From IMG/VR virus record IMGVR_UViG_3300037585_002540, positions 1-40,678 of that record: a DNA stretch of 40,678 nt; one strand, written 5' to 3'. Source of the stretch: a virus. Positions 2-40,678 of this stretch are shown here, piece after piece. Below the pieces are notes generated by a model. The model saw only the letters and a list, made by a program, of their open reading frames with translations. It was not told where the DNA came from and did no database searches. The translations under genes were made by a program, and so were the position numbers. Numbering within the stretch: position 1 is the first letter of the stretch; each line of letters begins with the position of its first letter.

Positions 2-3000
2 TTAAACAGTTTTATTTCTAAACTATTCCTAGAGCGTCCTGCGTTCGCTGCAAGAAACTGGATAACAAATAAGTCTCTTATGGCTTTAGATGGTCTCTCA
101 CTTAGTGAAGCATTTTTAACACAAGAATCATACTACAGACGAGTATGGGGTGACGTTGAGTTTGCATCTAAAGCGTTTTCAAAATCTGCTATTGGTGAAA
201 CACTATCTGGTGCAGTACCTATACGCGGAGAAACAAACTGGTATAAGGTAGCACTCGGGCAACGAAACGAAAAAATAGTAGCTGCAAAGGGTATGAAGAA
301 GTTCTTCTTAACTATGAAGGGTGGTGGTATTCCCTTTATCGGTGGTGGTCTACCATTTATTCATGCACGAGAACTTTCTGGATTAGCAGAAGCAACAGAC
401 CGTATGCGTATTATTGATAAAGCAGGTGCTCGCTGGTATCGACAACTTGCTACTGAAGAGTCCATTAAAAATCTTATACGAACACAATACCCTGACGCAT
501 GGCGTATCTTAGGTGATACAGACCTAGGAGAAGATGGTAAACTTCTACAACAAATTATTGAATCTATGCAAAACCCTGCAAACGTCAGTATGGACCAGAT
601 AATTAGAACTGTTGAGGATGTCTCAGATACAAGTCGAATCTTACTTGAAACTATGATAAGTCCAAAACAATTATTCAGAGAGCTAGGATTTAACCCGGCT
701 CACATGGCGGACTTAGACTTAGATAGACTTGTCAGCAAGCTCTTAAGAGACTTTGATGTCCACTCTCCTAGTTCCCCTTTTACACCTGCACAGAGATTAA
801 TAAGAGCAATTGATGCAGAGATTGCAGAACTAACTGATCATTCTAGACTAAAAGGTATTGGTGCAGGGTTTAGTCCAAATGGAGAGTTTAACTCACAAGC
901 ATTAAGAGCATTAAAAGATGAATTATTTGAGCAAGGCGATGCAAGATTATTCCCTGAAGATATTTTAGACTTACCTGTAGAAGATTTAGAAAGAGACATC
1001 TTTACTAACTTACTTACACTATGGCCTAGATACTTTGAAGAAGCAAAAGTTAAACTGGCGGGAGAGGGGAACACACCAACAGAAGATATGGTTAAACGTG
1101 CTGAAGTACTCGCTAGTCAGGCGGTGTTCACAATTGCTAAACCATTGCGGGCTGTTGAAGAACTTAAGGCATATCTTAAGCTACAGCTTGAGAACCCTTC
1201 TTTACACACAGAAACTAACTATGGTTGGGTGCGTAAATTAACAAAGCTTGGGTTTGGTTTAGAAGATCGAACGTATGGTAGAACTCCTATAGGTGGAGAA
1301 AAAGTAAGAATACATGAAACAATACAGGAAGCTAGCGCAACTCCTATTGCCAAAAGCTTTGATGAGCTGCAAGGGCAAGACCACATAGTCCATTCTCATT
1401 TACCTAACACGCTATACCATGCTACTACAGGTAATACTGAAGTGTCTAAAAATGCAATACTAAAAGTAGGGACTACAGGAACTGGTGGACTAGGAGGTAG
1501 TGGTGGTGATGCTCTTTCACTTACAGATAACTTTGAAATTGCTACTAATATCAAAACACAATATAGACGAATACATGAATTAGCTAATGCTGATATACGA
1601 GATACAGAAAAACTTTTATTAAAGTATAGAGATGAAGATCTAAAAGTACTTACTGACACAGAAAAATACAATCTTGAAAAACTACGTGAAGCAGGTTTCT
1701 TTACAGATGAGATTGATGCTATTCTTAATCCTAATATAGATAATTGGTATGGCTTAAAAATCACTAATGAGGATCAAAATAACGCTTACAATTTTGCTCG
1801 ATTTGATTTTAACGAATTAGCAAACGCAAGTGAAGAAGCACAGATGTTTGCTAAAGGTAGAATGATAAATCTTTTCTTTCATAATAGAGAAGAAATGGGT
1901 GCTTTAATTCTTAACTTAAGAACTAGACTTGATGAAGGGTTTAGTGATACAAGAAAGCTATATGACTCAGCTACTCTTAGAAATAAAGATGGAAGTATAA
2001 CAAACTTTCCAATTGATATAAAAAGTAGGGGAATATTAGGAGATAAAGGGTGGGCTGTTGGTGGTCAAGGTTGGGAAAAAGATGCTCGTTTATACTCGTT
2101 TGTAGACCCTTATATATTAACTTTACAAGACACAAGCCCCGAGCAGCAAACATCAAGAGTGGCAGCTTTTATGGTAGCGATGGGCAAAAAGAGCCGAGCT
2201 GATTTTGATATAATACATGTAAGAAGAGACCTAATACCAGATAACGCGGCTATTGATGTATTTAAAAAAGAAAATCTTCGTGAATACGCAGTACATTCAG
2301 ATATTCCAGTAGGTAATCCAGAAAATAAACGAGTAAAGTTTTGGAATACTTATAAAAAATTAAGAGATGATCTTGACTGGGATAATCCTATGACCGTTTA
2401 TGAAGATAAAGATGGGGACATAGTTCCTTTTATGCCTCCAAACGTAAACGCAGAGTTTGTAAAAGATATTAAAGATGATGATGTCCGGATTACGTTAAGT
2501 AATATTATGGCACTTGTCAGAGCTGCTGCAGAGCCTTTGGAAGAAGGTAGAGAAGTAAATCAAATTGGCCCAGATGTAGGTTCTTCTATTCGACAAACAA
2601 TAAACGAAGAAAGAGCAAAAGACCACGCTAAAATTGCTGGAAGAGTACTTGATAATTTACGTAGGCTAACAACAAGTGCTGCACGTTCTGAACGTAAAAC
2701 AAAAATACCAAACGAGAGAACAGCAATTAGACAAGTAAGAGATAATCTAAACAAACGATTAGAAGGAATAAAACCAGATTTAGAAGGCCGTTATTCACAA
2801 GAAGCTAAAGACGCTGTTCTTGATATGACTCTTACAGATATTCTTTTAAGACAATTTGATAGGGTTAGTCCTAACCACGTACCCGGAATGAGTAATGCAA
2901 CTCATGCAAATATAAGACTTAACCCAGAAAGCATTCTTAACACATATTTTACTAAGGCTCAACGTAAGCTTTTTAGAATAGTAGATATTGAACTTGCTTT

Positions 3001-6000
3001 GATAAAACAGATTAAAGAAGGACGAGCTGTTTATGCAGATGTACCTGCAGATGAGTTAATTAAATCACCTCTAGAAATATCTCCTAGTATTCGTATCTGG
3101 AGAGAAATGAATCCACCAGAAGAAGTCTTTGTGCCTATGGCAGGAGATACCGTTGGATTTACAGGAAGAACAGAAGGTATACCTCAAACTGCTGCTGAAG
3201 CAGGAGCTTGGTGGGAACGTGCACAAGACGCACGATTTTGGTTTAATGAAAGTACTGAAGGACAAAGAGAGTACCGTAGAATTGTTAACAACGATACGCG
3301 AACTGACTTACAAGTTGCAGAAGATAACCTTAAAGATTTTGGTGACCCACACCAGTTATTAGACGTACCATATGATCAAGCAGATATAGCAGCGTGGAGT
3401 CCAGAACCTTCTCCTGCATTAAAAAAGATTTGGAAAGATTTAGGTGAAGACTTAAGTTGGATGGCTAATGAAGCTACTAAAGCTAGGCTATCTAGAACAC
3501 AACTAAAAAACCAAATTAGTGAATTTGAAACACAAGTTAATACACAAATGACAGAAGCCATTAAAGAAGCTTTAGCTGGATTACAAGGGTTAGGCACAGG
3601 AACACAATCAGTAAGAGCTAGAGGTAATCAATTAATAAATGAACTTACAGCTCAGTTAGAGGTAAGAGTTAATAGACTAGTCAACGCTACACAGGAAGAT
3701 GATAAGTTTGTTGGCTATAACACTATCTTAGATGAGTTGGGAATAGATGATGCACGAGAAGTCACACTTGGTAAATTAACCGGGAGTGGAGAACGCAGCA
3801 TGTCTAGAGCTGACAGGATGGGTAAGAACATTTGGCATGATGATGATAACGATGTGTTCGCAAACTGGCTAACTAACACAGCACCAAAACTTGCTTTCTT
3901 AAGACAGTTTAGAAAGAAAGCTATGGAAGATCTTGCACTAGGCGCACAACCAGATAGTGTTACAACTCAGTTTATTAATAGAATTAGAGAGTTTGATGTT
4001 CAACAAGCTATGCGATATGGTGGAATGCATCTTGATACTGAACTTGATGAAGTTGGCTTAAGTGCAGCTGCTGACGATCTTATTTACTTAAGAGCAGAAA
4101 GAGACGGACGTTCTAGACGTGCATTAGAAGATTTAACATCGCCTGAACTACGACCAGACGAAGGTATATACCGTAGAGGAATACCTCGTTATAATACTTG
4201 GTCTGACTTTTTGAAGTTTAACTTTGCTGAAGTATTAGAAACGTCTGTAGCTATGAGCCATGCAGTAGGAAATAAAAGCTTTAGTGACTCTGCAAAAACA
4301 TTCTCAAAGCCGACTAGAACACTTATATATCCTAGAGGAGTCACAGAAGATATAGATAAGTCTACGATTTTAAGTCCGTCAACTCGTGCATTAGATACAC
4401 AGTCAGGAACTCGTATAGCAGGTGTAGAGCTTTCTGATGAAGCAAGACTTTTATATAACGAACGAACTGGAAAGAACATTGTTGCAGGTGAACGAGTAAA
4501 ATGGTATTTGCCTGATGGCAGAAGTAACGTAGAGTTTGATGAAAATAGTGCAGTACTTCCTGCTAACTATGGTATGCCTATTCATAGACGAGATGACAAT
4601 ATGTTAGTAGAAGGTGCACCTTCACAAGGAGTTCACGGTCGTGTATTTATGCAACAGACTCCTCAGACTATTATAGTGGATCCTAGAACCGGAATAGAAA
4701 CTGTACAAGAATACGTTGCAGTTATTACAGATGACAGTTGGCCGGTAGACGCTAGACGAATGGCTATCTTTATTAAAAAAGGTTCGTCAGAAGCTGACAT
4801 TGAAAAAGAAGTTATGGCGTTAGCTAGATACACAAAGAAGACTAAAAAGAAAAGAAAGCAAATTGGGCTTGACTTCCGTATGACTTCTCGTGGTGATCAC
4901 AACTGGACGGGCTTTAGAACCTCATGGTCAGGTACTTCAGGGGGAACGGGTCTTATGGATCCAGCTAATGCACAAGCAGAAATGAGTCGTGTTATAGATG
5001 AAATTGAAGGCTTGGCAGACCCAGAAGATACTAAGGGAACTTTCAAAAAGTTTATAAGTGGGCTACGTAAATCAGGTTTGTCTGAAGAAGAAGCAGACAG
5101 AGAGCGTGGTATACGCCGACGTGCACTTATTAATGTTGTTAACTACATGCAAGAACAGTGGGAAAAAGGCTGGCCTATATACGGTATGACTAATGATACT
5201 CTTGAAGATATACTTCCTTTGTTTATTAGAGAGCAACGGATATTTGAAAACTCTAGAGCCTCCGTTATAAATAGAGGTCTTAGAAGTGGATTACAAGACC
5301 CTTCAGTTAGTCAGACTGGTTTAGATATAACTCCTAGATTACCTTTAAAATCCTACAATACTCTTTCTAAAGAAGATGGTGAGTCACTTACACACGCACT
5401 TAAAGGTCTTGAAAAAGAAACAAACAACTTACGTAGAACAGCTGGCTCTCTTGGTAGAGCTAATGCTGACTGGATTCTACACGATTACAACAATACAAAT
5501 AACTTAGATTATATTCTACGTTGGATAGGTCCTTGGCATATTTGGCAGACACGTACTACAGGTAAGTTAGCTGCAACATTAGTAGACCACCCTCACCTAC
5601 TAAACCAATTTACAGCTTTCCAACAGACTATGCGAGAAATAAACAGAGAAGGAGATTCATCTAGTTGGACAGGATACGACCTACCAATAGGACAGATGGC
5701 ACAACCTTTCTATGGATTAGCTAAAGCTAGTGGTTTAAACGTAGGTGGTTGGGTAGATGCAGTAGAATCTAACGTCGCACCTAAAGGCGCGGCTATGAAC
5801 ATAGATGCGTTTTTGTTCTGGAATGATATGTTTGATTACTACCCTGCAGGGGGTAGAAGTGTAAGAGATGCTAAAGACCCAACAATTGCAGGAGATGACC
5901 CACTACGCTACTTTGATGAGTACAGTACTCTTGGAAAAGCAGCAGACATATATGCAGGAGTATTAAAGCTCCCAATTAACCCACTATTTACAGCTGGACT

Positions 6001-9000
6001 TACATTGTCAGGTGCATTTGGTGAGCAAGTTGATAAGACTGAAAAAGTATTTGGTTCACTTACTAGACCGGCTGATGCAACGCTAGGTTGGACAACCTCT
6101 TTATTTGGTAAGCATACAAAGACACAGGTAATTAGAACTAACAGAGACCTTCGAGAAATCGACTGGATGTATTTTAACACTGCGATGCAGGAAGTTATGC
6201 GGAATGGTCCTGATGTAGAAAACAACCCAAAACTAAAACTAATACTCATGTCATACGACATGTGGAGCCGAAAGAAAAACGACCCACTAATTAATGTTCC
6301 CCTACTCTCTGTTATTGGAGCAAGTAGTGGAGATATCTTTGGTAATGAGTTGACAGGTAATGACCCGGCTATTGATCCTGTTACAGGTGAGAAACTAGAC
6401 TCAACCGCTTTAGCAAGCACACACGCTGAAGTTGTTTCAGCTGCTGCTTCACGTCGTGCTCAAAGAGATACTTGGTCAATGCTAGTAGGTATGGCAGTAA
6501 ATGTACCTTATCCTACTGTAGTTGACCCTAAAACAGGACACAAAGTAGATGCTGGAAGTATTATGCAAGAGTATTATGACATAGTACAGAATAGATCAAT
6601 GTCTAGCACACAAAGAACTGCAGCTTATGATGAATTATTTAAAGAGCATCCTTATGTACGAAATTACTTAAATAATAAAAAGTTTGAAACTGCACCTATT
6701 AAGACTGCACAAGCTACAAGTATGTTCTATAGCGGATTAGATGATTTAAATCTTATGTACGAACAGGACTTAGAAGCTATTCCAGATAGAGTTCCTGTAC
6801 CATCTTCACCTATAGATGCACAAAGAAGTATACAAGAAGAAGCAGGTCTTACTGATCAGCCTATGGATAACTTTACTTTCTTTGGAGCTAGAGCTGACGC
6901 AAGTGAGCGAAGAAGAAGGAGTACACAAGAACTTAAAGTTAGAATATTTGAGGCTACAGGTGTAAACACTGGTATAGAAGGTGAAGAGTATGGAGAAATA
7001 CACCCTGCATTTGCTGTAGATAAGAGGTCATTTGGTGACATCTCTTTGTTTAGAGAAATGCATAAAGAAAATCTTTTCCGTAATGATATGTTTATGACAC
7101 TGTTTGCAGATGATCCTATGGCAGGTGTAACACGTATAGAAACTGTACTTGATTCTCTTTTTCCAGATGGAAGATATAGAGCAGTCAGTAGAGAAGATGT
7201 AGAAGATGTCATAGATGAAATTGCTCAAGAAAAGCTAGACCGTCAAGACCAAAAGTACCCTAGAGAGTATATTACAGTTGACATGTTTAATGCATGGCAG
7301 CTTGAAAGCTATATGCAAATGCTTCGTAAAGATAAGTGGAGTAAAGTACCTCCACTATTCTCTCAAGAGTTTAGAGACTTATACACGATAAGGGGAACAA
7401 ACGCAACTAATTGGAATGAGTACTACGAAGACTTAGAGGCGTGGGAAACTAAGATTAAATCTGATGACCCTGAAGCATTTAGAGCTTTCCAGATATATGA
7501 AGCCAGTACTGCAGACATGAATTACATTGTAGATAAGGCAATTGAAAATGTTATGCGAGGTGTACAGGAAAACATTAATGCTGCTTACGAACTTGGTAGG
7601 GGAGACGCAATTGCTACTGCTAGACAAGTTCAGTTTATTGAAGATACTTGGAAAAAACCAACAGTTGAAAACGTATTAGAGTGGTTACGTACTAATGAAT
7701 ACGGAGATATTTGGTTAAACCATAATGATTACTCTGAAGTTGATTTAGTATCACAGATTAAAAAACGATTAACTACTGTCGAAGACATTACTTTTGAGGA
7801 CATGCGTGATGGCAAGTATGAAGAAAAGATAACAAAACTAGCTAGACAGCTTGATTTAGACGTTCCGTTTAAAGAACAGTATCATTTCCTTTCTCCAAAC
7901 AAAGAGAGAACTATTCACAATCAGGAAACTCTTGATGACTTTGTAAAGGCGTATGAGGTATACCGCTTACTAGACTTTGCAAAAAAGAATAATATTAATA
8001 TGTACCTTAATCCAACTGAGATAGATATGCATGCTTTGTACTATGAGTACTTTGTAAATGGTAGTGAGACTCGAAAAGCACAAGCTGCTGCATTACATGA
8101 ACTCTATGAAGATGGTAAGTACGAAGAAGCAGCCCAACTAAAAGAGAAGTTTAAACAGCGTAATACATCTGGATGGCCTTTAGGTGCTATTGGACAACTA
8201 CCCCAAGTTGCTTCAGGTAACATGCCGCCTAATGAGTTCTCTGTATCTGAGGGTGGGTTCCCCTCTACAGGTGCTTCTGCTTATAACATTAATAGAAACT
8301 ATCAGCTATTTGATTTAGGACAAACTCCTGCTTTATCTAGTGAAGGAAGAAAGATTAAATCTTATCACACTTCAAGATACTACGAAGGGAATCAAGAAAT
8401 TCCCGGTGACTTTATCTTTGAGACATTTGGAAGAAATGGTGTAGCAAGTAGAGAAGACATCGTAGATATGTGGGAAAGTATATACCCACAGATGCGCGCT
8501 CTATATGGAGAAGCATTAAACCATCCTTCTGTACTTACATTACTTGCTATGACAGATTCAAATGGTAAAGCAAAAGAAGATGCTTCTATTGCAACATACT
8601 GGTATATAGATGCACTTGCTGATGTAGTAGCGTCTGCAATTGGTATTAAGAGTATAAATAGAAGACCAGTTCGTACAGTTGTACAAACTAAAAAGGCTTC
8701 TATTCCTTCTTCTGCATCCTCTAAAGTAACAACACCTTCAACAAATGGAGCAGGTGGATTACCTACATGGGCAGAAGTAACAAGGCATATGACTATGGTA
8801 TTCCACGATACTGAACTAGAAAAGTCCGTAATTGCTTTCTTTATGAACCCTTCAAAGACTCTTACAAACAATCATCAAAGAATGTTAAGAGCTATGTATA
8901 GGACATTCCCAATAGGAAGTGGGTACACGTTTGAACAATGGTTACAGGCACTTAAACTAATATATCAAACAAAGATGTTAGTAGGTGGTGGAAGTAGTAG

Positions 9001-9079
9001 CAACTACCAAAGTCAAGGTAGAAACCAGTACTTCCAATACCCATCTAATACGCCAAGATTGGCAAAATACAGAGATTAA
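2..9079 (+). CDS. Giant virion-associated protein, 5' partial
   Basis: The frame is open to the left edge, giving at least 3,025 residues. The first ATG (position 80) has no Shine-Dalgarno sequence, and the 26 codons before it read like protein (LERPAFAARNWITNKSLM), so the true start lies outside the window. Roughly 440-495 residues after that ATG is a stretch starting LYHATTG and continuing with glycines and LSLTDNFEIATN, which resembles the start of ADP-ribosyltransferase-like (ART) folds carried by some large phage proteins. Around residue 1,810-1,830 is an aromatic segment (ILRWIGPWHIWQTRT). The rest is mostly charged and helical. It lies just before scaffold and capsid genes, where internal or ejected virion proteins are often found. 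Function as an injected or core protein is inference. Virion RNA polymerase was considered, but no polymerase motifs were seen. Confidence 0.75.
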   Translation, partial: LNSFISKLFLERPAFAARNWITNKSLMALDGLSLSEAFLTQESYYRRVWGDVEFASKAFSKSAIGETLSGAVPIRGETNWYKVALGQRNEKIVAAKGMKKFFLTMKGGGIPFIGGGLPFIHARELSGLAEATDRMRIIDKAGARWYRQLATEESIKNLIRTQYPDAWRILGDTDLGEDGKLLQQIIESMQNPANVSMDQIIRTVEDVSDTSRILLETMISPKQLFRELGFNPAHMADLDLDRLVSKLLRDFDVHSPSSPFTPAQRLIRAIDAEIAELTDHSRLKGIGAGFSPNGEFNSQALRALKDELFEQGDARLFPEDILDLPVEDLERDIFTNLLTLWPRYFEEAKVKLAGEGNTPTEDMVKRAEVLASQAVFTIAKPLRAVEELKAYLKLQLENPSLHTETNYGWVRKLTKLGFGLEDRTYGRTPIGGEKVRIHETIQEASATPIAKSFDELQGQDHIVHSHLPNTLYHATTGNTEVSKNAILKVGTTGTGGLGGSGGDALSLTDNFEIATNIKTQYRRIHELANADIRDTEKLLLKYRDEDLKVLTDTEKYNLEKLREAGFFTDEIDAILNPNIDNWYGLKITNEDQNNAYNFARFDFNELANASEEAQMFAKGRMINLFFHNREEMGALILNLRTRLDEGFSDTRKLYDSATLRNKDGSITNFPIDIKSRGILGDKGWAVGGQGWEKDARLYSFVDPYILTLQDTSPEQQTSRVAAFMVAMGKKSRADFDIIHVRRDLIPDNAAIDVFKKENLREYAVHSDIPVGNPENKRVKFWNTYKKLRDDLDWDNPMTVYEDKDGDIVPFMPPNVNAEFVKDIKDDDVRITLSNIMALVRAAAEPLEEGREVNQIGPDVGSSIRQTINEERAKDHAKIAGRVLDNLRRLTTSAARSERKTKIPNERTAIRQVRDNLNKRLEGIKPDLEGRYSQEAKDAVLDMTLTDILLRQFDRVSPNHVPGMSNATHANIRLNPESILNTYFTKAQRKLFRIVDIELALIKQIKEGRAVYADVPADELIKSPLEISPSIRIWREMNPPEEVFVPMAGDTVGFTGRTEGIPQTAAEAGAWWERAQDARFWFNESTEGQREYRRIVNNDTRTDLQVAEDNLKDFGDPHQLLDVPYDQADIAAWSPEPSPALKKIWKDLGEDLSWMANEATKARLSRTQLKNQISEFETQVNTQMTEAIKEALAGLQGLGTGTQSVRARGNQLINELTAQLEVRVNRLVNATQEDDKFVGYNTILDELGIDDAREVTLGKLTGSGERSMSRADRMGKNIWHDDDNDVFANWLTNTAPKLAFLRQFRKKAMEDLALGAQPDSVTTQFINRIREFDVQQAMRYGGMHLDTELDEVGLSAAADDLIYLRAERDGRSRRALEDLTSPELRPDEGIYRRGIPRYNTWSDFLKFNFAEVLETSVAMSHAVGNKSFSDSAKTFSKPTRTLIYPRGVTEDIDKSTILSPSTRALDTQSGTRIAGVELSDEARLLYNERTGKNIVAGERVKWYLPDGRSNVEFDENSAVLPANYGMPIHRRDDNMLVEGAPSQGVHGRVFMQQTPQTIIVDPRTGIETVQEYVAVITDDSWPVDARRMAIFIKKGSSEADIEKEVMALARYTKKTKKKRKQIGLDFRMTSRGDHNWTGFRTSWSGTSGGTGLMDPANAQAEMSRVIDEIEGLADPEDTKGTFKKFISGLRKSGLSEEEADRERGIRRRALINVVNYMQEQWEKGWPIYGMTNDTLEDILPLFIREQRIFENSRASVINRGLRSGLQDPSVSQTGLDITPRLPLKSYNTLSKEDGESLTHALKGLEKETNNLRRTAGSLGRANADWILHDYNNTNNLDYILRWIGPWHIWQTRTTGKLAATLVDHPHLLNQFTAFQQTMREINREGDSSSWTGYDLPIGQMAQPFYGLAKASGLNVGGWVDAVESNVAPKGAAMNIDAFLFWNDMFDYYPAGGRSVRDAKDPTIAGDDPLRYFDEYSTLGKAADIYAGVLKLPINPLFTAGLTLSGAFGEQVDKTEKVFGSLTRPADATLGWTTSLFGKHTKTQVIRTNRDLREIDWMYFNTAMQEVMRNGPDVENNPKLKLILMSYDMWSRKKNDPLINVPLLSVIGASSGDIFGNELTGNDPAIDPVTGEKLDSTALASTHAEVVSAAASRRAQRDTWSMLVGMAVNVPYPTVVDPKTGHKVDAGSIMQEYYDIVQNRSMSSTQRTAAYDELFKEHPYVRNYLNNKKFETAPIKTAQATSMFYSGLDDLNLMYEQDLEAIPDRVPVPSSPIDAQRSIQEEAGLTDQPMDNFTFFGARADASERRRRSTQELKVRIFEATGVNTGIEGEEYGEIHPAFAVDKRSFGDISLFREMHKENLFRNDMFMTLFADDPMAGVTRIETVLDSLFPDGRYRAVSREDVEDVIDEIAQEKLDRQDQKYPREYITVDMFNAWQLESYMQMLRKDKWSKVPPLFSQEFRDLYTIRGTNATNWNEYYEDLEAWETKIKSDDPEAFRAFQIYEASTADMNYIVDKAIENVMRGVQENINAAYELGRGDAIATARQVQFIEDTWKKPTVENVLEWLRTNEYGDIWLNHNDYSEVDLVSQIKKRLTTVEDITFEDMRDGKYEEKITKLARQLDLDVPFKEQYHFLSPNKERTIHNQETLDDFVKAYEVYRLLDFAKKNNINMYLNPTEIDMHALYYEYFVNGSETRKAQAAALHELYEDGKYEEAAQLKEKFKQRNTSGWPLGAIGQLPQVASGNMPPNEFSVSEGGFPSTGASAYNINRNYQLFDLGQTPALSSEGRKIKSYHTSRYYEGNQEIPGDFIFETFGRNGVASREDIVDMWESIYPQMRALYGEALNHPSVLTLLAMTDSNGKAKEDASIATYWYIDALADVVASAIGIKSINRRPVRTVVQTKKASIPSSASSKVTTPSTNGAGGLPTWAEVTRHMTMVFHDTELEKSVIAFFMNPSKTLTNNHQRMLRAMYRTFPIGSGYTFEQWLQALKLIYQTKMLVGGGSSSNYQSQGRNQYFQYPSNTPRLAKYRD

Positions 9080-12360: not shown

Positions 12361-13323
12361 ATGGCAGGTACTACCGCATATCCCGGTGCATTGGATGATA
12401 ATGATAATCTAGATGAAACTCTTACAGATGGTACGGATACCATTGCTGCTGCCCATCAAAATAATCAAAATGCTGCAATCAAAGCAGGGCAATCAAAATT
12501 AGGCATTACCGCAAGCACCGCTACTAGTGGTAAGATTCTTGTTGGAGGTTCATCGGCAGGTACGAGCGAATGGCAAGCAGTATCTGGGGATGCGTCCTTA
12601 GCAAGCACAGGTGCTATAACAGTAACAGATAATAGCCACGCTCACAACGCAACAACAATGACTGGCCTAGGAAACTGGAAATTAGTATATACGAACGGCT
12701 CTGGTGCTGCCACTGAATTAGCTCTAGGGGCTTCTGGTACCGTCTTAACTGGTGGTGGAACGTCTTCAGCTCCAACATTTGCTGCTGCGGCAGGAGGGGG
12801 TGGTCAGTGGGAACTAATAGCGTCAGATGTAGGTACTACTATATCAACTACTGGTGGTACAGCCACTGCTGTTGTTAAAGAGTTTGACAGTTTAAGTGTT
12901 CCCGCGACGACTCCAATGAAAATGGTATTCCAAGCCCACTTCGATGCCGATGGTACAAGTCAGAACATGTCCGTCAATGCTTTTAAAGAATTAAATGATA
13001 CAGAGACTGGGGGCACTGGAGCATACCTCCAAGCCACAACGACGGCTGATAATGAAAGATTTTTTTGGGTTGAATGTATCATAGGTGGTCGTGAATCTGC
13101 TGATACTAACTGGAGAGGCTACCAACACGCGATGTTATATGGGGGAACATATCACAACGGGGTTAACTATTACGGAATTAAACCTCAATATAATGGTGGT
13201 GGTCCCGACATGGGCGGTACAATTGTAGTGGATACTGTTACAAAAGTAGGTCTAGGAATAGGTACCCAAGGAGCCCACTCTGACATTAGAAACATATACT
13301 TATATAAAATGATTGTTGCATAG
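12361..13323 (+). CDS. Tail fibre / receptor-binding protein with shared N-terminal module
   Basis: A 320-residue protein. The first 90 or so residues (starting MAGTTAYPGALDDN, with AAAHQNNQNAAIKA and GGSSAGTSEWQ) are nearly the same as those of the gene at 13735, while the rest differs. This is the usual layout of phage fibres: a conserved virion-binding end and a variable receptor-binding end. The C-terminal part is beta-rich with a glycine patch (AAAAGGGGQWELI) and looks like a jelly-roll tip. AGAGGAG precedes the ATG. Attachment function is inferred from architecture and neighbours. Confidence 0.65.
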   Translation: MAGTTAYPGALDDNDNLDETLTDGTDTIAAAHQNNQNAAIKAGQSKLGITASTATSGKILVGGSSAGTSEWQAVSGDASLASTGAITVTDNSHAHNATTMTGLGNWKLVYTNGSGAATELALGASGTVLTGGGTSSAPTFAAAAGGGGQWELIASDVGTTISTTGGTATAVVKEFDSLSVPATTPMKMVFQAHFDADGTSQNMSVNAFKELNDTETGGTGAYLQATTTADNERFFWVECIIGGRESADTNWRGYQHAMLYGGTYHNGVNYYGIKPQYNGGGPDMGGTIVVDTVTKVGLGIGTQGAHSDIRNIYLYKMIVA

Positions 13324-30411: not shown

Positions 30412-30420
30412 AAATATTTA

Positions 30421-30587
30421 ATTGGTAGGCTCTTTAGAAATTATCAAGAATATGATTGCTCACATAAGGACTTATTCAGCGAGTTCCCCCTTCGCGTCAC
30501 CTTAAACCTTGTCTCATATGATTGGGTATCATGTAAGTATGAGAGTTAGTAATCCTTGATAATCTCTAAAGAGGCTACCAATCCTAT
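30421..30587 (-). ncRNA. Structured RNA candidate B (long closing helix), novel
   Basis: The arms 30421-30448 and 30555-30582 pair over 28 positions with 26 Watson-Crick matches. One non-match (30439/30564) is A-C on the + strand but U-G on the - strand; the other is G-G. Inside are a hairpin with TCTCATA/TATGAGA arms (30512-30518 / 30538-30544) extended by ATGAT/ATCAT, and a GCGA/TCGC hairpin (30479-30482 / 30492-30495). A promoter lies directly upstream, and the nuclease gene starts 10 bases downstream. It may be a leader or a separate small RNA. No family is recognised. Confidence 0.65.
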
Positions 30588-30593
30588 ACATAT

Positions 30594-30622
30594 ATTGTAA
30601 CACATATGCTGTAGATTGGCAA
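30594..30622 (-). promoter_or_regulatory. Promoter for structured RNA B and the recombination operon
   Basis: On the - strand: TTGCCA (30622-30617), a 17-base spacer and TACAAT (30599-30594); each hexamer matches the sigma70 consensus at five of six positions. The predicted start is near 30587, five bases before the first helix of RNA B. A weak 7-bp hairpin lies in the same spot (arms 30624-30640), perhaps part of the end of the upstream message. Confidence 0.65.
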
Positions 30623-30652
30623 CCCCTTTGTCAGAGGAGTTTTACTAGTTAC

Positions 30653-39576: not shown

Positions 39577-39791
39577 TAGTCCACCCTTTCTCTACCACTA
39601 AACGCAAAGTCATTACCATTCCAATGCTCATCTTGTCGTAGGTCTTGCCATATATGTATAGCCATACCCTCTATGTTACGGATATTCTCATCCTCTACAT
39701 GTTCCCCTGAATCCGTCAAGCCATCTTCTACAGCTTGTATCAATTCAATCAGGGTCATGTCACTATGTACTTCCATCTTTAATCTGGGCAT
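39576..39791 (-). CDS. Small hypothetical protein, first gene after the structured RNA
   Basis: A 71-residue acidic protein (IELIQAVEDGLTDSGEHVED, IEGMAIHIWQDLRQDEHWNG). It starts at ATG 39791 with AGAGGAG shortly upstream, 33 bases after the closing helix of the multibranch RNA element. It is the first gene of the small-gene cluster. No family is recognised. It overlaps the ArdA-like gene by one base. Confidence 0.5.
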   Translation of the reverse strand: MPRLKMEVHSDMTLIELIQAVEDGLTDSGEHVEDENIRNIEGMAIHIWQDLRQDEHWNGNDFAFSGRERVD

Positions 39792-39823
39792 ACAATCTCC
39801 TCTCGTAGTATCTACCTGTTAGA

Positions 39824-40043
39824 TACAAGTGGATCCAGTAGCAGCATCAGTGCCCTTAGTGTGCACTACACTGATACAATGGCAAGGAGTTCGCCGTTAG
39901 TCATACCTCATACCTCTATCTAATAGGTTCTTACAGGATGTGCTGTTTATACCAGTCCTTACACCAATGGGGTGTCCATCGGCAGCCTAGCCTATGCTAG
40001 ATAGAGTTACTCAATCGGTAAGTAACTACTGAATCCACTTGTA
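39824..40043 (-). ncRNA. Structured RNA candidate A, multibranch domain
   Basis: An 18-bp closing helix (39824-39841 with 40026-40043) has one non-match, C-A on + and G-U on -. Directly next to it are a hairpin (40007-40011 / 40021-40025) and a helix (39914-39922 / 39998-40006, 9 bp) extended by 39923-39927 / 39991-39995. Inside is CCAATGG/CCATCGG (39964-39970 / 39976-39982), whose one mismatch is again G-U only on the - strand. A further hairpin is 39846-39852 / 39869-39875 with an inner 39857-39860 / 39865-39868. Helices abut without gaps, as in a real multi-way junction. No RNA family is recognised. Confidence 0.65.
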
Positions 40044-40053
40044 TGTAATAGGT

Positions 40054-40127
40054 AATACTAGGCCAACAGATAAGAAAGGAGTAGGGGATGAATATACCCT
40101 TGTTAAATTATCTGCTGACCCAGTACC
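40054..40127 (-). ncRNA. Structured RNA candidate A, middle helix
   Basis: CAGATAA (40067-40073) pairs with TTATCTG (40108-40114). Outside a 4x4 internal loop, TACTAGG (40056-40062) pairs with CCCAGTA (40119-40125). The non-matches here (40060/40121, and 40055/40126 and 40054/40127 beyond) are all A-C on + and U-G on -. It lies between the multibranch domain and the 22-bp hairpin and is probably part of the same transcript. Confidence 0.5.
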
Positions 40128-40164
40128 AACATGGTCGTAAAGTATGATCGAGAGGGGTCACATA

Positions 40165-40260
40165 CCTTACTAGAGAGACACTTAACACAGAGGTGGTTAA
40201 TCCGTACATACTGTTGGTTAAGTCCGTACATACTTCATGCTAAGTATCTCTCTAGTAAGG
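40165..40260 (-). ncRNA. Structured RNA candidate A, 22-bp hairpin at its 5' end
   Basis: The arms 40165-40186 and 40239-40260 pair over 22 positions. The two non-matches (40179/40246 and 40185/40240) are C-A or A-C on the + strand, and G-U or U-G on the - strand, so the - strand RNA is paired all through. The 52-base loop carries a duplicated segment. A promoter-like pair lies directly upstream with a predicted start at the base of this stem. It may be a processing site for a double-strand RNase, or a structural 5' cap of a longer RNA. Confidence 0.65.
40195..40234. repeat. Direct repeat in the loop of the 22-bp hairpin
   Basis: TCCGTACATACT occurs at 40201-40212 and again at 40223-40234; both copies are preceded by GGTTAA, with a G inserted in the second. 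The unit is about 18-19 bases with a step of 22. Both copies fall in the loop of the 22-bp stem, so they would be presented as twin single-stranded sites in the RNA, or as twin protein sites in the DNA. Confidence 0.7.
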
Positions 40261-40264
40261 GGGA

Positions 40265-40293
40265 ACTATACGGCAGCAAGCTCCCACTGACTA
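40265..40293 (-). promoter_or_regulatory. Possible promoter for structured RNA A and small-gene cluster
   Basis: On the - strand: TAGTCA (40293-40288), a 17-base spacer and TATAGT (40270-40265), matching the sigma70 consensus at four and five of six positions. The predicted start is near 40258, at the base of the 22-bp stem. The layout repeats that before RNA B (promoter, then helix at once), which adds support to a moderate match. Confidence 0.45.
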
Positions 40294-40301
40294 GATTTTA
40301 T

Positions 40302-40577
40302 TTAACGAGCACCACGACGGGGAGCTTCAATAGCTTCACCATCATCAGCACCACCGAATTGCTCGGCAGCTAAGACAGCTAGCTTAGCCCACGTTGTAGC
40401 TGTAATAGGAGGTGCCATCTTAGTGTAGACATCACCACCGTCTTTGTATTGAGTAGACTTGCCGAAGCTAATCTGCTTAACACCGTTGTATTCTGATTGC
40501 CATGCAACCAGTGTAGTGTTTTCGCCAACACTAATGCGTACCGCATCTTCCGGTACTTCTACAAAACTTTTAGCCAT
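40302..40577 (-). CDS. Small protein, PC4/p15-like fold possible
   Basis: A 91-residue protein with a beta-rich core (AVRISVGENTTLVAWQSEYN, GVKQISFGKSTQYKDGG) and a following helix (ITATTWAKLAVLAAEQF), then a basic end (APRRGAR). The order strand-strand-strand-helix and the phrase 'isfGK...kdG' resemble PC4/p15-type ssDNA-binding proteins that phages sometimes carry, but the match is loose. AAAGG lies before the ATG. It is the rightmost gene seen and leads the leftward arm, so an early DNA-binding or transcription role is plausible. Confidence 0.45.
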   Translation of the reverse strand: MAKSFVEVPEDAVRISVGENTTLVAWQSEYNGVKQISFGKSTQYKDGGDVYTKMAPPITATTWAKLAVLAAEQFGGADDGEAIEAPRRGAR

Positions 40578-40653: not shown

Positions 40654-40678
40654 GACACCCCCTTCGGGGGTGGTGTCT
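40654..40678. terminator. Stem-loop at the right edge of the window
   Basis: GACACCCCC (40654-40662), loop TTC, GGGGG (40666-40670), then a 3-base bulge and TGTC (40674-40677). The + strand form allows a C(UUCG)G tetraloop, common in terminators. The sequence after it is outside the window, so a T-run cannot be checked. It could end a transcript from beyond the right edge, or one from the + strand. The stretch 40578-40653 holds no gene. Confidence 0.45.

Follow-up and report, generated by a model that had tools for sequence, protein, structure and literature searches.

A large modular structured RNA, best called a new family, in a small group of uncultivated phages

Positions 39792–40301 of an IMG/VR virus record form the single large gap in a tightly packed block of leftward genes, which raises the question of what this 510-base gene-free stretch encodes. 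An earlier note had proposed a structured RNA of about 450 bases here, maintained by selection on the leftward strand. The window (the whole stretch of DNA analyzed, 40,678 bases with linear ends) comes from an uncultivated, little-known virus whose host is probably a bacterium. It encodes, among other proteins, a family A DNA polymerase, a helicase, a phage-type major head protein, an endolysin, and a B12-dependent ribonucleotide reductase. Because of this gene set, the record most likely represents a tailed phage, and its closest capsid relatives among catalogued phages are at ~30% identity or below. An open frame of 2,999 amino acids (window 80–9079, plus strand) has no Pfam or PHROG match. 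The gap lies between two small open reading frames:

40302–40577, minus strand: upstream flanking gene, 91 amino acids
39576–39791, minus strand: downstream flanking gene, 71 amino acids

The 91-amino-acid protein has no PHROG match and belongs to no known family. Its low-confidence AlphaFold2 model (pLDDT of 64) has three strands and one helix, with no fold match in the PDB. The protein is very conserved, has an arginine-rich tail, and is a possible RNA-binding partner. Upstream of its gene, several lineages have a GC-rich hairpin with a GAA or UUCG-type loop (window 40655–40678; L005 2905–2925; L008, reverse complement, ~12630–12665), which is perhaps the end of the preceding transcript.

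We folded both strands of positions 39790–40300 against dinucleotide shuffles. The leftward strand reached a minimum free energy (MFE) of −193.9 kcal/mol versus −140.2 ± 6.5 for its 100 shuffles (z = −8.26), none of which was as good. The rightward strand reached −169.3 (z = −5.40). In all five full copies that we found (the window and relatives L004, L005, L006, and L008), the RNA strand is 19–55 kcal/mol more stable than its complement, with z scores of −7.7 to −14.1 (60 shuffles); the opposite strand of L004 has a similar z score. A sliding-window scan of the whole window was noisy, and both this RNA and a second one described below rank among its better windows. Energies far below those of shuffled sequence, with helices at the sites that had been named, bear out the proposed RNA of about 450 bases between two leftward genes. 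Its features are listed below from 5′ to 3′ on the leftward strand:

40261–40285, minus strand: hairpin P1, GGGAGCU/AGUUCCC (from the MFE fold)
40165–40260, minus strand: long hairpin P2, 24 bp, arms 40237–40260 and 40165–40188 (pairing and covariation)
40150–40157, minus strand: CCCCUCUC, predicted long-range partner of the ribosome-binding site (pair probability ~1 with 39799–39804)
40056–40125, minus strand: helix P3, 40108–40125 with 40056–40073, 18 bp including G-U (covariation)
40026–40052, minus strand: closing helix, 5′ arm (96% of cells paired; two pairs changed on both sides)
40007–40025, minus strand: hairpin Pa with the conserved loop CCGAU (MFE; CCGAU kept in five of five)
39914–40006, minus strand: variable branch Pb, stem CUCUAUCUA/UUAGAUAGAG (MFE)
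39897–39904, minus strand: linker AUGACUAA, invariant in five sequences
39878–39897, minus strand: hairpin P5 with the invariant loop ACUCC at 39886–39890 (C-G to U-A compensation in L006)
39844–39877, minus strand: hairpin P6 with a UAGU-GCAC-ACUA tip and an AGGG bulge at 39853–39856 (two double changes, others through G-U)
39815–39841, minus strand: closing helix, 3′ arm (MFE and covariation)
39808–39826, minus strand: alternative hairpin GUAUCUA-ACAGG-UAGAUAC, which would compete with the closing helix (sequence)
39797–39804, minus strand: ribosome-binding site GAGAGGAG of the downstream gene (sequence)

Three helical blocks had been described previously, and all three are where they had been placed, with lengths that needed revision. 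The hairpin at 40165–40260 has 24 bp rather than 22, and the helix at 40056–40125, previously given as 14 bp with interruptions, has 18 bp including G-U pairs. The multibranch domain does have the 18 bp said to close it, and an outer extension makes this helix 26–27 bp with one or two mismatches. Neighboring helices abut at 40006/40007 and 40025/40026 as described, and P1 is an addition to the helices of the earlier note.

We searched IMG/VR contigs for relatives via the 91-amino-acid neighbor and then via RNA motifs. In L004, L005, L006, and L008, the RNA occupies the same position, flanked by the same pair of genes, and homologues of the 91-amino-acid protein (76–81% identical) are encoded directly upstream of it in L005, L006, and L008. 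The L004 RNA is 93% identical to that of the window. L020 holds the 3′ end only, and the contig of a further group member, L018, begins beyond the RNA locus. The full copies are about 480–660 nt long, at ~480 nt in the window. They consist of an almost invariant 3′ junction domain of 159–238 nt and, on its 5′ side, hairpins that relatives may retain, replace, or add to. A covariance model built on the 3′ domain gave a single location per record, always accompanied by a weaker match on the opposite strand.

The unpaired core of the 3′ domain is near-invariant and comprises CCGAU in Pa, the linker, ACUCC in P5, and the GCAC tip and AGGG bulge of P6. A kissing contact between loop ACUCC and bulge AGGG, both invariant, is possible. 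The Pa stem is less clear in L005 and L006, and Pb is swapped for an unrelated hairpin in L008 and for a short one in L005 and L006. Among the 5′ hairpins, P1 and P2 occur in every full copy with unrelated sequence in L008, where a longer, different hairpin stands in the place of P1; L005 and L006 carry C-G for U-A in P1. P3 is found in four of the five copies and is absent from L008. Extra helices are present in L005 and L006, and an optional insert, ~82% identical over aligned columns, precedes the closing helix in both L006 and L008:

L006 2894–2982 and L008 ~1106–1217, minus strand: optional pseudoknotted insert, absent from the window, L004, and L005

The insert pseudoknot pairs GAUUGGC with GCCAGUC in L006 and GACUGAC with GUCAGUU in L008, across the stem UUCCUGU/ACAGGAA. 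Seven pairs form in each, of which one is changed on both sides and two vary through G-U, in a comparison of two sequences only. The plain MFE of the insert is not unusual (z = −1.0); a pseudoknot is outside the folding program's model. The insert looks like an independent RNA domain. We dropped a long-range pairing of the 5′ end with the junction (UAGUCA/UGACUA), which is broken in L006 and L008. Likewise, a likeness of 21–26 nt between a P2 arm and an 82-amino-acid gene of L005 is likely coincidence, as the best window and L004 matches occur only in L005 and its copy.

Next to synteny, we analyzed covariation, with rows that represent about three lineages; the relatives are few and partly close, and the statistics are accordingly modest. 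For the 3′ domain (alignment A6, with the variable branch Pb removed from two rows before aligning), 92.3% of cells are paired, and five pairs are changed on both sides versus 2.2 in shuffles (4 of 500 as high). Six of six slid controls gave no such pairs. The closing helix contributes L008's GGACUC/GAGUCC versus GGAUUC/GGAUCC to these double changes; pair 127/156, also one of the five, is weaker, with one cell unpaired. P2 has 99% of cells paired over four relatives and four pairs in which both bases differ (slid controls, 0–1). P3 has 100% of cells paired and two double changes, in L005/L006, a signal that is weak alone since there are only three distinct rows and 58 of 500 shuffles score as high. 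Altogether, 11 base pairs in three helix groups are changed on both sides and still pair.

Strand-specific G-U pairs had been put forward as a sign of selection on a leftward RNA and as an argument against a palindrome acting only as DNA. This evidence proved larger than claimed: read on the leftward strand, P2, P3, and the 3′ domain together contain 40 G-U cells versus 7 A-C cells across relatives. The alternative content of the gap, a conserved small protein, was rejected: no leftward frame is common to all lineages, and a likeness on the opposite strand follows the conserved nucleotides. Thus, none of the outcomes that the earlier note gave as refuting (no covariation, an energy no lower than shuffled sequence, or a conserved short protein) arose. 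Because folding energy, strand bias, synteny, and covariation agree, selection on a leftward RNA is well supported, and positions 39792–40301 very probably encode, leftward, a functional folded RNA.

The 3′ domain ends ~11 nt before the ribosome-binding site of the downstream gene and 24 nt before its start codon, and in the window, L005, L006, and L008 the conserved structured domain is followed immediately by a ribosome-binding site and start codon. In L004, L008, and L020, one more small gene separates the RNA from the homologue of the 71-amino-acid gene:

L004 ~3140–3286; L008 674–898, minus strand; L020 76–300: extra small gene directly after the RNA, absent from the window

In the window, which is without this gene, the leader is fused at 39791 to the next gene, whose start codon takes the position of the missing gene's. 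The ribosome-binding site is predicted to pair with an upstream CCUCU(C) in five of five copies. However, 5′ parts that had been shuffled still pair it ~70% of the time on average, and the predicted sequestration of the site therefore carries little weight. In L005 and L006, GUAUCU...AGAUAC has a different spacing from the alternative hairpin of the window and encloses the ribosome-binding site. We found no intrinsic terminator in the gap, whose leftward strand has a single promoter-like match (40293–40265), within the number expected by chance. Therefore, the RNA is probably part of a leftward mRNA.

A second gap of the same leftward gene block also encodes a structured RNA, with a leftward-strand z score of −6.4 and conservation (82–99%) in five other group records:

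Window 30412–30652, minus strand; L016 13047–13288; L020 10295–10536; L017 15816–16080: second RNA, between two leftward genes

In its closing helix of ~28 bp, the L017 lineage differs in both bases at three pairs (12 of 500 shuffles as high; slid controls, 0–1), and its core UUUAAGGUGACGCGAAGGGGGAACUCGCUGAAUAAGUCCUUA of 40 nt is invariant. Like the first RNA, it ends just before a start codon. It had no match in Rfam and no convincing match among catalogued phages. By eye only, the core words UGAC, GCGAA, AACUC, and ACUUAC give the two RNAs a faint likeness.

The earlier note had left open whether the RNA is new or a diverged relative of GOLLD, ROOL, OLE, or HEARO. At both strict and loose Rfam thresholds (gathering and E ≤ 5 for the window, E ≤ 10 for L006 and L008), no family fits at a meaningful score, which supports a new RNA. 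The GOLLD covariance model matched neither the window (gathering, E ≤ 5) nor L006 and L008 (E ≤ 10), and Rfam searches of the RNA likewise gave no match to ROOL, OLE, HEARO (a family which we take to be present in Rfam 15), or any ribozyme family. Eukaryotic miRNA and snoRNA hairpin models gave weak scores far below their cut-offs. A search of INPHARED with the window, L006, and L008 RNAs returned no real match, only an AT-rich hairpin in Acinetobacter phages (E = 5e-3). Extra matches from an IMG/VR motif scan beyond the group (L022–L026 and L027) are coding DNA or chance; prokaryote contigs, searched by motif and by DNA polymerase, gave nothing, and plasmids, searched with the optional insert only, gave no real match. 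The viral and prokaryote contig scans used exact patterns, which distant members may have escaped.

No match supports the idea of a diverged relative, and the likeness to GOLLD is limited to size and a conserved-3′/variable-5′ layout. GOLLD has a conserved 3′ region and a less conserved 5′ region, and both GOLLD and ROOL are phage RNAs without an established function that often lie near tRNA islands and assemble into RNA cages; the GOLLD, ROOL, and OLE profiles in that study were taken from Rfam (PMC12286853). The present RNA is likewise a large structured phage RNA, but it is shorter than many GOLLD RNAs, which exceed 800 nt, and has no tRNA island beside it. No tRNA was found in the window, and among relatives only L008 has one, a tRNA-Met at 8530–8604 (minus strand), ~7 kb from the RNA. 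The studied ROOL member has 659 nt with many helices and pseudoknots (PMC12286853). ROOL thus resembles the present RNA in being phage-borne, of similar length, and rich in helices and pseudoknots; unlike ROOL, the present RNA has a protein gene on either side and adjoins a ribosome-binding site. Precedents for structured leaders in phages are manA, wcaG, and PhotoRC-II of marine phages, which have likely leader positions (PMC2864571). These are linked to host-like metabolic genes, unlike the present RNA, which has no Rfam match to them. They are also far smaller. The put RNA of HK022 is a cis-acting RNA of early phage transcripts (PMC9378689). It consists of two small hairpins. Compared by description, it resembles the present RNA if the latter, too, acts in cis. 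The present RNA is filed under neither GOLLD/ROOL nor the marine leader motifs; it is a new family of a broadly known kind, best called a large modular structured RNA so far found only in one small uncultivated phage group.

What would such an RNA do? We give about an even chance to an element acting in cis on its own mRNA. In this reading the RNA belongs to the leftward mRNA, and its conserved 3′ junction domain, in which a closing helix of up to 27 bp encloses Pa, Pb, P5, and P6, would act on the following genes. Folding or unfolding of the closing helix, perhaps with a protein, a ribosome, or a small molecule bound, would set whether the ribosome-binding site is open. The hairpins on the 5′ side would serve as exchangeable spacers or stabilizers. 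We prefer this reading because the conserved domain ends so close to the ribosome-binding site of the next gene and because conservation is highest in the part closest to the start codon. The lack of a terminator or above-chance promoter supports it, as does the window's loss of the small gene exactly after the RNA, where RNA and ribosome-binding site stayed as a leader. The second covarying RNA, which differs in sequence, likewise stops right before a start codon. The predicted pairing of the ribosome-binding site in every copy fits too, but is uninformative given its persistence with shuffled 5′ parts. Usual cis regulators are smaller than 450–660 nt, which counts against a cis element, and optional domains with their own conserved pseudoknot better suit a free-standing RNA.

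Such a free-standing, ornate RNA, cut from the leftward transcript and serving as a trans scaffold or an oligomer like the GOLLD and ROOL cages, is the main rival explanation, possible but somewhat less probable. RNase III could act on helices as long as P2 and the closing helix. A length of 480–660 nt, very high stability, and optional inserted domains that include a covarying pseudoknot favor it, as does a conserved 3′ and less conserved 5′ region, as in GOLLD (PMC12286853). Against it stand the link of the conserved domain to a ribosome-binding site and the absence of an Rfam match, of an adjoining tRNA island, and, within the gap, of a terminator or above-chance promoter. It is improbable that the locus is a barrier of tandem RNase III hairpins that sets mRNA ends and half-lives and has no specific core function. 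P2 is indeed a nearly perfect duplex of 24 bp in the window and L006, replaced by a different long duplex in L008, but a barrier gives no reason why the unpaired CCGAU, AUGACUAA, ACUCC, and AGGG of the 3′ domain are invariant. A compact junction with invariant unpaired stretches and an optional pseudoknotted domain could also recall a self-cleaving ribozyme or its remnant, which we consider very unlikely as no Rfam ribozyme family matches. Unlikelier still is a replication origin or packaging site with palindromes acting as DNA: the complementary strand too folds better than shuffles, but the excess of G-U over A-C cells on one strand and the lower energy of that same strand in five of five copies largely refute it.

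We tentatively suggest that this RNA may represent a new class of large phage RNAs that has a function of its own, as an assembly of RNA alone or of RNA and protein made during infection or as a new kind of large modular mRNA switch, accompanied in the same phages by a second RNA (30412–30652) of similar general build. Phages are known to have very few RNAs this large and complex, and GOLLD and ROOL are without an established function. A new, unrelated family whose boundaries are defined and whose invariant core is mapped, and which has module insertions and a covarying pseudoknot, would be an independent test case for what such RNAs do. With a second covarying RNA at another operon boundary, the hypotheses of action on its own mRNA and of a free particle would be directly testable against each other.
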